A stretch of 64,000 bases of DNA from an uncultured Methylococcaceae bacterium (GTDB lineage Bacteria > Pseudomonadota > Gammaproteobacteria > Methylococcales > Methylomonadaceae), in contig CAIXAE010000010.1 of the NCBI GenBank assembly GCA_903917345.1, positions 1 through 64,000 of the forward strand, written 5' to 3'. A program made the translations under genes and the position numbers. The notes beneath the pieces were generated by a model, which saw only the letters and a program-made list of their open reading frames with translations, was not told where the DNA came from and made no database searches. Of the stretch, positions 19,447 through 24,140 are shown piece by piece; position 1 is the stretch's first letter; each line of letters starts with the position of its first letter.

Positions 19447-21732
19447 CTAATAATCTTTAATAGGCGCCGGCGCCAAAACTGTTCTAGAACCATTCGTTTC
19501 AGCAGGACTAACAACACCCGCCGCTTCCATCGCTTCAATCATAGTCGCGGCACGGTTGTACCCTACTTTAAATTTACGTTGCACACTGGAGATTGAAGCT
19601 TTACGGGACTCCGTAACAAACATAACGGCTTCGTCATATAAAGCGTCATTCTCGGGGTTGCTCTCTCCCCCCCCCGAAAAGCTAAAACCTGCATCGCTAC
19701 CCTCACCAAAATCTCGCGTTATTTCATCTAAATAATCCGTCGGTGCTGTTTGTTTTAAGAAGGCAACCACTCGGTGAACTTCATGATCATCTACGAAAGC
19801 GCCATGAACACGCGTGGGAATACTGGTACCCGAAGGTAAAAACAACATATCCCCTAAACCTAACAAGGCTTCTGCCCCGCCTTGATCCAGAATAGTACGC
19901 GAATCAATTCTAGAGGAAACCTGAAAGGAAATGCGTGTTGGGATATTAGCCTTAATTAAACCGGTTAAAACATCCACTGAAGGGCGTTGCGTAGCTAAAA
20001 TCAAATGAATGCCCGCCGCCCTTGCCTTTTGAGCCAAACGAGCAATTAACTCTTCCACCTTTTTACCCACGATCATCATCATATCGGCTAATTCGTCGAT
20101 AACGATAACAATGCTCGGTAACTTAGTTAATGCTGGAATATTGTCCCATTCTTCGAAAGGATTAAGAATCTGATAAATAGGATCTCTGATAGTTTCTCCA
20201 CGCTCAGTGGCTTCATCAATCTTTTGATTAAAACCTGCTAAATTTCGGACGCCCAATTTAGACATTAACTTATAGCGTCTTTCCATTTCAGCCACAGCCC
20301 AACGTAAAGAATTACTAGCCTCTTTTACGTCAGTTACTACAGGCGTTAATAAATGCGGAATGCCTTCATAAACAGATAACTCCAACATTTTTGGATCTAT
20401 CATAATCATTCGCACTTCTTCAGGCGTGGCTTTATATAACAAGCTTAAGATCATGGTATTAATAGCGACAGACTTTCCAGAACCCGTTGTACCGGCCACC
20501 AATGCATGCGGCATCTTACCTAAATCGGCCACTAAGGGATCGCCCGAAATATCTTTACCCATGGCTATCGTCAGTAAAGAGCTTGCTTTCGTAAACGTGG
20601 GCGAATCTAATAACTCACGTAAAGTGACCATCTCCCTTTCTCTATTAGGAATTTCAAGGCCCACCACGGTCTTTCCAGGAATAATCTCTACAATACGAAC
20701 ACTCGTCACCGATAACGCGCGGGCTAAATCTTTTGATAGGCCACTAATTCTACTGACTTTTACACCCGCCGCAGGCTGAAGTTCAAATCGAGTAATAACA
20801 GGACCGGGATGAAACGCAACCACCTCTACGGCCACATTAAAGTCAGACAAAATGTCTTCAACCAAACGCGACATGGCGTCTAACTCAGCATTTGAATAAC
20901 CAATAACACGCGTATCTCTTTCATCTAATAATGAAAGCGAGGGTAAAACATCTTCTCCTGGCTTATAAATTGGCGCATCAAAGGTTTGTGCCGAATGACT
21001 CTTTGCAACTTGACTCACTGATATGGTTTTACTGCCTCCACTGACTGGCTTTGAAACCACTTTTTTTCTTTCAGTGATTTTTTTAGGAGCCTCTTCTAAA
21101 ACCTCTGACTCTTCGTATCGATGCCCTTCCTCTATTTCATCCGAATTGCCAAAAAAGAAATGAAATAGATCTACGGTATATTTACCCGTTAAATCAATCA
21201 ATCTTAACCAAGAAACCTCAGTCGATAAGGTAATGCCCGACAACAATAGAACAATTAAGAATAAGGTAGCACCGGAGTTTCCAAACAAAAGCAACACGGC
21301 ATCACCTGTTTCTTGCCCTAAGATGCCACCTGTCCCACCGGGTAAATCAATCCCTATCCTGAGTAAATATAAATAAAGCAACGCCGCACTAGCAATGACG
21401 GTAGCAATTGAGCCTAACCATTGAAATGCTGTAGTAATTTTGTGTTGTTTTTCTCTCGCTAACGCATACAGTTGATAGCCATGCCAAAACACAATAAGAG
21501 GAAACAAATAAGCGCACAAGCCAAAGAAACTAAAGCTAAAATCGGCCAACCATGCGCCAGAGATACCACACGCATTGGTAATTTTTTGACCGGTACCACT
21601 GTGCGTCCAACCGACATCCTCTTTATTAAAAGTCACGAGTGATACTAAAAAAAACACGCCCACCGCAAAGAAGCCAAGAACAGCGATTTCACGTAGACCA
21701 CGATAAGTTTTTTCTTCCATTACTGCCGACAT
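19447..21732 (-). CDS. ftsK: DNA translocase FtsK
   Basis: Septum-located DNA pump that clears and resolves chromosome termini. The 761 residues hold an N-terminal membrane domain with four or five helices (to about 175), a short linker, the alpha/beta motor with Walker [13 protein letters not shown] and Walker [13 protein letters not shown], and a C-terminal winged-helix gamma domain ([17 protein letters not shown] onward) that reads KOPS sites. It is shorter than E. coli FtsK because the linker is reduced, as in many bacteria. It is oriented opposite to lolA-rarA, whereas E. coli has all three in one direction. Its upstream region contains the 21-bp array. Confidence 0.96.
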
Positions 21733-21934
21733 AAATAGGACTCGAAATTGATTACTACGAATTTGTTACACATTATAAATCAATGACCATTTATTCTGCA
21801 TTATTCTCAGGCATTTAATTGGTTTTTAACACAAAATTATTAGTATTTTGAATATAAATTTAAGCATATGAGATACTCAATTAATATATTGTCATGATCG
21901 ATCAGTCGCTTATCAAATGAACTTAAACGATCAA
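21733..21934. other. AT-rich ftsK upstream region with out-of-register motif copies
   Basis: Non-coding. It must contain the minus-strand ftsK promoter, though no clear consensus is visible. Elements like those of the 21-bp array occur with core positions at about 21844 (TATT), 21867 (TATG), 21890 (TGTC) and 21911 (TATC). The last two are 21 bp apart but offset by 5 bp from the main array. Confidence 0.45.
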
Positions 21935-22291
21935 TATATCTGAATGATTATTTATGATATTTAATTTGGAAATCATCGTATTAATAGGGTCGTTTGAGGC
22001 ATTAAACACCGTATTTAAGATATGAAATTTGGAGTTCCAGATATTTAAAGCCTTGTTTTTAATACCTTAAATAGTTTATTTTATATTACAAGTGGGAAAG
22101 TAGGTATTACAAAGCCGTAATTTAATGTTACAAACGAAGTACTCAATATTAAAACCATTGGCTTTAATATCACATTAGGCGGATGAGATATCTAAAATAG
22201 TGTTTTTGATATTAAATAAAGAGTGAGAGACATCTAAATTTTATTTATTAATGTCATAAACGCTCTAGTAGTTATCTTATACTTCTTTAAG
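21935..22291. repeat. Array of 17 degenerate units with an exact 21-bp period
   Basis: Units begin at 21935 and every 21 bp thereafter to 22271, with no insertion or deletion across the run. On the + strand each starts with a conserved ten bases, consensus RATATYWMAA. Examples are GATATTTAAA at 22040, GATATCTAAA at 22187, GACATCTAAA at 22229 and GGTATTACAA at 22103. The other 11 bases differ in each unit. On the minus strand the motif reads roughly TTKWRATATY. It lies in the 626-bp gap between the ftsK start and the FN3-like gene stop. All reading frames contain stops and no unit is an exact copy of another. A weaker continuation is visible on the left in another register. Function unknown. 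Confidence 0.85.
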
Positions 22292-22358
22292 ACTTAACCT
22301 AACAGGTGTTCTAATCATTTGAATGCCTGTCAGATTAATGGATGATGGTGAAGCCGGT

Positions 22359-22976
22359 TTAATTAATCAACTTTGATACGGACGCGCAAAAATCTGTTAT
22401 GCCTACGGGCGTAACTCCGGCGCTTTTAACTTCTAAAATAGATCCCGTCTCTAAACCTTCAATAATGATAGAAGATTGGGTGGTAATAGTATAAAGCCCC
22501 CAGTCACCTTTTAGACCGGCTTTTGTGATCACTCTTATATCCCATCGGTAAGCCCCTGCTTTGGGGATTAATCTACGAACTACTTTTGCACTACCAGAAT
22601 GCGGCCCATCTTTAATGGCTAATTCTGCTTTATTTCGAGGCGCAGGTTGACCAGACACGTTAAAGCCACTGCTTAAGAGTTTAGTTTCATCTCCATTAGC
22701 TATTCTATTAACATAACCAACCAAGTGCTTAAACATTAAGGTAACCGCTATATCGCTGTCGTGCATGGCTGATTTAGCCGTATGGCTTCCATCTTCTGCA
22801 GCTAGAATGGCTAATTCAAGATTTTCAACTGCCAACCTAAGTGTCGATAAAGGAACATCGAAATTAATAAAGTAGGGGTTATCGGTCAGATGCGCGAGGA
22901 CATTTTTAAAGAATGTCGGTTTGGTTTTAATGGGAATTGAAACAAAATCTAATACCGCTTTGATAATTTTCATCAT
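22359..22976 (-). CDS. Uncharacterised protein with a fibronectin type III-like C-terminal domain
   Basis: About 205 residues. The ATG at 22976 (or the next codon, 22973) is chosen because AGGAATA precedes it; the frame is open to 23030. The N-terminal half is helical (KIIKAVLDFV, LRLAVENLELAILAAEDGSH, KHLVGYVNRIANGDETKLLS). The C-terminal half, from about residue 115, looks like one FN3-type beta-sandwich: KAELAIKDGPHSGSAKVV, then YRWDI, then SIIIEGLETGSILEVKSAGV. There is no signal peptide or membrane helix. Similar FN3-annotated proteins exist in environmental bacteria, but I know no function. It is followed 67 bp later on its own strand by the 21-bp array and then by ftsK. Confidence 0.65.
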   Translation of the reverse strand: MMKIIKAVLDFVSIPIKTKPTFFKNVLAHLTDNPYFINFDVPLSTLRLAVENLELAILAAEDGSHTAKSAMHDSDIAVTLMFKHLVGYVNRIANGDETKLLSSGFNVSGQPAPRNKAELAIKDGPHSGSAKVVRRLIPKAGAYRWDIRVITKAGLKGDWGLYTITTQSSIIIEGLETGSILEVKSAGVTPVGITDFCASVSKLIN

Positions 22977-23177
22977 TATTCCTAGATTAATGGCTGGATT
23001 GCCACTGCAAGACAATAGCCCCTTAATCAAACAATAGATATAAATATATGATTTATTAAATAGACCTAAATACTTCTTCTAGTTATTAAGTGACTATAAG
23101 CGCTTAAAATGAGATTTACTTAACCAACATTTACCCACATAATAAAACGATCTAATTACCCTTTGACTTTACCCTAG

Positions 23178-24140
<963 letters not shown>

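Follow-up and report, generated by a model that had tools for sequence, protein, structure and literature searches.

The locus analysed here raises the question of why a strictly periodic row of short, degenerate motifs should lie behind the gene of a small protein, and of whether gene and array belong together. An exact 21-bp period over seventeen units had been read from the letters of the window, by which we mean the whole 64,000-nucleotide stretch of DNA under study, and this is borne out: the array keeps its 21-bp step with 0 indels and its lag statistic at period 21 amounts to 8.9. In 400 first-order Markov shuffles of positions 21780-22360, the control named by the original prediction, no such value was reached, the top lag score being 4.99 over periods 12-69 and 3.59 at 21, as scanned at step 10, which is coarser than the step of 5 used for the real sequence. 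After correction for how many columns there are, the column information reaches 137.2 bits at period 21 and 140.0 bits at the doubled period of 42, and amounts to 59.6 bits at most over all remaining periods from 5 to 44. Run at score 30, Tandem Repeats Finder passes over the window array, which indicates that its units are too divergent for ordinary detection.

The proposed division of each unit into ten conserved and 11 variable bases held in part. The RATATYWMAA core stands, but a weaker T-run closes each unit in addition to it; the motif is therefore a dyad, TTTnRATATYnAAA, and the truly free stretch comprises about 7 bp (phases 11-17). The dyad symmetry is equalled by none of 300 column permutations (z 4.4). 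Every reading frame is open over at most 60% of the array, on which ground a coding repeat is rejected for it. The array lies about 70 bp from the 3' end of the neighbouring gene, whose listed open reading frame spans 22359-23030 from a TTG start. The inverted repeat between the two (Table 1), a possible terminator, was recognised solely by eye and is missing from the computed list.

Table 1. Positions of the gene-array unit and its neighbours in the window, and pairs of arrays with the same motif in the surveyed part of the genome.
Feature	Position	Strand	Remarks
ftsK	19447..21732	-	left flank of the gene-array unit
Helically phased array	21934..22290	.	17 units of 21 bp, dyad TTTnRATATYnAAA, 3' of the family gene
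Imperfect inverted repeat AACAGG...CCTGTC	22299..22335	.	between gene and array; read by eye
Family gene	22362..22973	-	204 aa from the conserved MK start; predicted helical N domain and C-terminal fibronectin type III domain
trxB-like gene	23187..24140	+	right flank; Pfam Pyr_redox_2; name given by eye
Second-array pair	window with C6:20300
Second-array pair	C10:113347 with C9:169541
Second-array pair	C36:61374 with C8:88719
Second-array pair	C45:18149 with C8:54794
Second-array pair	C8:145865 with C9:40279		both period 22; found in one direction only
Second-array pair	C10:65583 with C8:181541

The protein encoded beside the array has no Pfam match at E≤1, and its predicted structure (mean pLDDT 89, pTM 0.52) consists of a helical N domain and a fibronectin type III (Fn3) C domain. 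Residues 116-204 of the model resemble an integrin beta4 Fn3 domain (VIA Z 13.4, rmsd 1.3 over 83 residues); with the whole model as query, VIA lists Fn3 matches alone and is uninformative on other folds. On this model the C-terminal domain is a fibronectin type III fold; of the 28 family members aligned, 12 match Pfam fn3 (PF00041) with E≤1, the best of them at 2.6e-6, and the window member is not among these. Modelled alone, the N domain reaches a pLDDT of 90.9, and a Foldseek search of the PDB returns no known fold for it at E≤0.001. A recognised DNA-binding fold is found neither among the Pfam hits of the 28 members nor by Foldseek of the N domain; the same Pfam hits include no ribbon-helix-helix family, the models being a helical bundle plus Fn3, and no replication initiator family occurs among the Pfam or NCBIfam hits. 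The computed isoelectric points of the 28 proteins range from 5.3 to 9.1, acidic to mildly basic, and the N domain is mostly acidic. A catalogued anti-phage defence family is not indicated either, as only one of the 28 members has a single weak match among the PADLOC families (E 0.011) and the window member has none. An alignment of 10 upstream regions gave no convincing shared promoter of the paralogues.

We have investigated whether arrays accompany the other members of this family. In a survey of 1.08 Mb of the window's own genome, which represents 44% of it on contigs picked partly for holding family genes, an array (z≥7) lies no more than 1 kb from 9 of the 11 copies that protein search by itself had detected, compared with 8 of 362 random anchors (Fisher p 4e-12). 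Of 400 anchors, 38 had been dropped as near family genes, and four of the 8 matching ones are at coding repeats. Adding three divergent relatives gives 11 of 14 with an array, two of the three having been noticed through their arrays in the first place. The array-less cases are two of the 11 copies, one of them near a contig end, and one of the three relatives; over all five matches of the divergent subtype in this genome, two have an array (z≥7.8, period 21 or 42). Survey hits with frames of at least about 160 aa were counted as coding repeats and excluded, C10:113381 (frame of 163 aa, beside a family gene) being retained; the hit at C10:82241 is within a coding frame.

The pattern extends to relatives. 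A motif-free scan of the flanks of 90 family loci finds 62 loci with an array at z≥8 and a period of 20, 21, 41, 42 or 62 bp, values close to whole helical turns. These loci comprise 42 from the own genome and relatives, where more matches exist and among which L061 is counted, and 48 of 59 named loci; L063, L067, L070, L071, L075, L090, L098, L100, L104 and L106 were left out, some of them having been scanned separately without an array near, and the 90 include some duplicates and truncated flanks. Over all 64 arrays at z≥8 the periods are 21 (34 arrays), 20 (13), 42 (9), 41 (4), 62 (2), 14 (1) and 28 (1), such that 62 of the 64 are in the near-whole-turn classes, which supports the earlier proposals of a constraint on spacing and of a two-turn phasing suited to identical binding units. 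The 41-bp consensus of L077, read by eye, is made of two subunits 20 and 21 bp apart. Several of the 20-, 21- and 42-bp arrays of relatives have at least one long open frame, some on both strands, and some of these may possibly be coding; at periods 20, 41 and 62 a peptide repeat in one frame is impossible. Two repeats of other periods adjoin family genes: a CCCTTTG heptanucleotide repeat directly behind one gene (L073:3344-3420) and a 28-bp repeat immediately 3' of another (L092:3736-3875), neither period being of whole turns.

The family itself has 13 matches in the own genome (G000, Methylobacter-type), of which 11 are listed, and relatives have as many as 20; among 61 genomes searched it occurs in 25, which all belong to the same genus. 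The named loci, 59 in all, come from MAGs of Methylococcaceae and Methylococcales, from Methylobacter psychrophilus, from MAGs labelled Crenothrix polyspora, from one MAG labelled Paludibacter and from ten Bacteroidota including Chitinophagaceae. In M. psychrophilus Z-0021 a family gene and its array lie on one contig (L061). At seven of the ten Bacteroidota loci an array of period 21 or 42 bp lies 66-269 bp upstream of the gene, and the other three have none. The Paludibacter-labelled locus (L062, JARLGX010000030.1) carries a copy 64% identical to the query together with a 21-bp array, and would be either a misbinned contig or a transfer between phyla. Among 299 genomes sampled across the phylum, the divergent subtype gave no match at E≤1e-10 in any of the 298 besides the own one. 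A phage or plasmid origin was rejected, as one family protein matched none of 50,697 phage and 72,556 plasmid records and the family alignment A2 gave no confirmed match in IMG/VR.

The arrays differ from one another in motif, and the more alike two proteins are, the more alike are their motifs. Over 52 non-redundant pairs, protein identity and motif similarity correlate with a Mantel r of 0.41, the top of 2000 permutations being 0.15; this set contains arrays at z≥8 with periods of 20, 21, 22, 31, 40, 41, 42 or 62, omits L092, and has proteins at least 93% identical merged (60 to 52 rows). The motif is shared in 36% of 55 pairs at 60% protein identity or more, in 2.3% of 43 pairs at 50-60%, and in at most 0.3% of pairs below 50%; below 60% identity the correlation is weak (r 0.15). 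Part of it is accounted for by gene and array having been inherited together. Of the two domains, the N domain agrees slightly more closely with the motif (partial r 0.24, against -0.01 for Fn3). Dyad symmetry at p<0.05 is found in 34 of 53 arrays, related ones included, about 3 being expected, while the other 19 include the 20-bp AAGTAC group (L072, L078, L084).

The motif of an array may also recur at a distance. For six of 11 gene-linked arrays the surveyed 1.08 Mb contain another array of matching motif and period that scores higher than every one of 12 column-permuted controls (Table 1), and the other five have none, or the array of a related paralogue, or a match at control level. Further matches above the controls link C24 and C36 reciprocally, C45:126983 with both C10:113347 and C9:169541, and C45:18149 with the coding stretch C45:66622; those of C24 with C8:88938 and of C40 with C6:63668 are within one or two points of the control. 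The queries C45:62934, C9:82491, C6:63749, C9:10417 and C9:40279 have no second-array match in the 1.08 Mb. One of these, C6:63749-63953, is a gene-less 41-bp array between response-regulator-like and folP-like genes (names by eye), whose partner motif is absent from the surveyed stretches.

The profile scan that the original prediction proposed was run on whole genomes. In the own genome the window-motif model gives 14 matches, all at the window array on C10 or at a single array on C6 that has no family gene (150 of 2458 candidates scored). Over 61 genomes, with strict filters and 64 scored candidates per genome, arrays of the window motif occur in at least 13 among the matches listed, all in the same genus. 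Also among the matches listed, G007 and G016 have two such loci and one gene each, G019 three loci and one gene, and G032 and G011 four loci and two genes each. In G017 (97% complete) there are three loci, the closest family copy among the matches listed being 41% identical, and family-gene fragments of 36 and 32 aa lie beside two of these arrays (L264:1823-1930 and L265:390-485). In G013 (84% complete) there are two loci, the gene being deleted at one, and the closest listed copy is 57% identical. The complete genome G018 and G034 have the motif tested in them, another than that of the window, at the gene-linked array alone; arrays also lie beside two further copies in G018 and one in G034. 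A strict pairing of one gene-linked with one gene-less array, suggested by G000, G007, G016 and G032, is not a rule, because G019 has three loci for one gene and G018 and G034 have the gene-linked array only; a second array is common. Gene-less arrays are located between convergent genes at dedA/nadB (G000), gatB/amtB (G013) and C110 of G019, the C9:169541 array lies between divergent ORFs, and the cysG site and C9:40279 lie between same-direction ORFs, the names dedA, nadB, gatB, amtB and cysG having been given by eye from translations.

Comparison of insertion sites gives some indication of how the units come and go. The distance between the starts of ftsK and trxB is 193-412 bp in those 16 of 20 loci that show both genes (ftsK is not shown in the own, G013, G007 and G001 loci) and 1,455 bp in the window, which is most simply explained by insertion of the gene-array unit here. 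The same site of G013, with flanks 96-97% identical, holds a decayed array, a gene deleted except for its start, and two extra genes; these (C55, L150:2919-4838) appear by eye to encode a TetR-like regulator of 207 aa and a YHYH-like protein of 349 aa. G013 has a second, gene-less array between gatB and amtB, where G000 has none; the empty site shows an 8-bp overlap of two matches, and an insertion-sequence-like end adjoins the G013 array. A 66-bp hairpin stretch by this array (L151:2566-2631) recurs at 86-89% identity at five places in G021 (L181-L185), at least one of them beside an apparent transposase; a terminal inverted repeat as part of the element was rejected, given that the five G021 places have no array nearby. 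G021 lacks the gene-less array that G000 has between dedA and nadB, 3 bp separating the matching flanks. G029 has this array, about 90% identical to that of G000 over 350 aligned bases, the flanking-gene blocks being 83-85% identical. Around this site, G000 C6:19500-20204 and G021 C40:24719-25424 are 99% identical on the dedA side and 88% on the nadB side, and a recent recombination tract appears, from these identities, to end at the array.

Where related arrays can be aligned, the motif columns are better conserved than the variable ones in all four comparisons, three of them at p<0.05. The identities are 93 and 80%, respectively, for G016/G011 (p 0.003), 81 and 67% for the window and G013 gatB-amtB arrays (p 0.012), 84 and 53% for the window array and the decayed G013 remnant (p 0.001), and 92 and 84% for G000/G029 (p 0.06). 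These counts, being based on BLAST, lean towards conserved seeds, and short stray blocks enter two of the comparisons (two such blocks in the 350 bases of G000/G029). The excess is no proof of present function, because the decayed remnant shows it as well. The suggestion that the variable halves are stored or templated information finds no support in these data, as these halves change faster and related arrays differ by whole units; also, no Cas-like gene was seen among the neighbours read by eye.

The sequences therefore display gene-array linkage, clade-specific motifs, near-whole-turn periods, mostly dyadic units, some second arrays and slower motif columns. Our preferred reading, held with nearly as much belief as doubt, is that the array is the DNA half of a two-part element, in which the protein of the adjacent gene recognises this helically phased array as its own, probably in dimeric form. 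We infer that the family protein is the reader, that it binds as a dimer and that it coats the array or polymerises on it. Private recognition sites about two DNA turns apart would adjoin the gene, and the 204-aa protein itself, as a dimer, would recognise the dyad of every unit. As the sites share one helix face, the bound protein would form a regular nucleoprotein array marking the place and any second array of the same motif, and because paralogues have different motifs several elements could operate side by side without cross-talk. The places so marked would serve DNA organisation, pairing or segregation, a putative purpose of the complex. By analogy, the best reading is that the element would work like a plasmid centromere or an iteron array, outside those families, and gene plus array looks like an unrecognised way of marking chosen chromosome places. 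Counted against recognition of the array by the protein are the near-neutral proteins without a known DNA-binding fold, the arrays outliving the gene and the family genes without array, and the tested motif of the complete genome G018 without a second array. A further step, which we consider rather doubtful, would make of these elements mutually private centromere-like marks in Methylobacter-type and some Bacteroidota chromosomes, in which each paralogue, bound to its own two-turn array as a phased filament, would link it to the one or few second arrays of the same motif where these exist, as a many-letter address code for folding, pairing or segregation.

Other explanations have to be weighed against recognition by the adjacent protein. 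An unlinked host protein might bind the array, the fibronectin-III gene being a partner or passenger that acts elsewhere, and the near-neutral charge of the family proteins, the N domain without significant fold match and the persistence of arrays without a close intact gene in G017 and G013 all agree with it. However, the motif varies by paralogue and close homologues retain it, and arrays in two phyla have this gene family as their neighbour; since one protein could hardly read so many motifs, many unlinked partners would be needed, and we consider this unlikely. The array might also be an oversized autoregulatory operator of the neighbouring gene. Of the 52 non-redundant arrays, 41 are indeed upstream of the gene (66-394 bp), but 11, that of the window included, are downstream (70-163 bp), and arrays of up to 27 units, the longest observed, exceed what an operator needs. 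Some gene-less arrays, moreover, lie between convergent genes where no promoter is expected, others not being so placed, which makes an operator very unlikely.

A selfish satellite, in which gene and array spread as a mobile or self-amplifying element and the gene-less arrays are relics or functionless copies, would account for the presence and absence among relatives at ftsK-trxB, gatB-amtB and dedA-nadB, for the 8-bp overlap at the empty gatB-amtB site and the insertion-sequence-like end beside its array, for the near-identical 25-unit array of L078 and for the gene fragments beside arrays. We nevertheless judge it distinctly unlikely: motif columns change less than variable ones, though likewise in the decayed remnant, the gene-less array held at the same site in G000 and G029 is more alike (about 90%) than the flanking-gene blocks, and by eye no transposase is a constant part of the unit. 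That the array acts as RNA, through a palindromic-repeat transcript whose hairpins are bound by protein, is highly improbable, even if the plus strand folds better than 100 of 100 shuffles (z -3.3) and the minus strand better than 97 of 100 (z -2.1), given that such folding is a by-product of palindromic repeats and the periods fit B-DNA turns; a known RNA was rejected, as 21700-23200 has no Rfam match up to E 1.

Compared with known systems, the element with the adjacent protein as its reader is closest to ParR-parC, the type II partition system ParMRC, in which direct repeats are bound by a small protein of their own from an adjacent gene. Direct repeats beside a gene are present here too and their motif follows the protein clade, binding being a presumed property of the family protein. 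About 10 ParR-parC families are described on Clostridium perfringens plasmids, the ParR proteins tested having bound own-family parC only (PMC9426499), and the ParR of pSK41 is described as binding parC repeats as a dimer of dimers (PMC4911067). Unlike ParMRC, the window element is chromosomal, its family has many copies per genome, and its arrays lie on either side of the gene with up to 27 units; the protein is a predicted helical bundle plus Fn3, ParR a ribbon-helix-helix. No actin-like ParM gene lies beside the window copy, whose neighbours are ftsK and the trxB-like gene, the other loci having been read by eye. The differences in fold, the missing ParM and the chromosomal multiplicity are the reason why we do not file the element under ParMRC.

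Plasmid replication iterons are direct repeats with a unit of about two turns; they adjoin a gene, and additional copies of the array occur elsewhere. The family arrays are of this kind, some with second arrays; unlike iterons, however, they have no recognised replication initiator gene, and the one family protein searched is unmatched in the phage and plasmid collections. CRISPR repeats are near-identical, about 23-47 bp long and separated by unique spacers. The window array also alternates conserved and variable parts regularly, but has a 21-bp period, a degenerate dyad and no Cas gene among the neighbours read by eye, and a CRISPR-like memory was rejected on the period, the divergent units and the silence of Tandem Repeats Finder. 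Bacterial fibronectin type III proteins share the fold of the C domain; the family differs in its helical N domain and its link to DNA arrays.

To our knowledge, no known bacterial system pairs a large paralogous family with private, helically phased chromosomal arrays, in two phyla. Among open-licence papers we found no description of such a gene-array system, and two genome papers on Methylobacter (PMC12810054, PMC9723741) use none of the words fibronectin, repeats, tandem repeat, paralog and multicopy in their main text. If the protein does bind, this would be a fibronectin-III protein reading DNA, the family would amount to many orthogonal protein-DNA address pairs of natural origin, and it would give a direct handle on the co-evolution of specificity and spacing. 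The gene-array pattern may be more widespread, because old arrays such as that of the window escape a standard tandem-repeat finder. An ordinary VNTR or satellite does not describe the family arrays, as the window units are half-conserved and nearly all periods are close to whole turns; in contrast to the window array, which stands at the old end of the range, young arrays such as L078 do have alike units, 25 nearly identical ones of 20 bp in that case.
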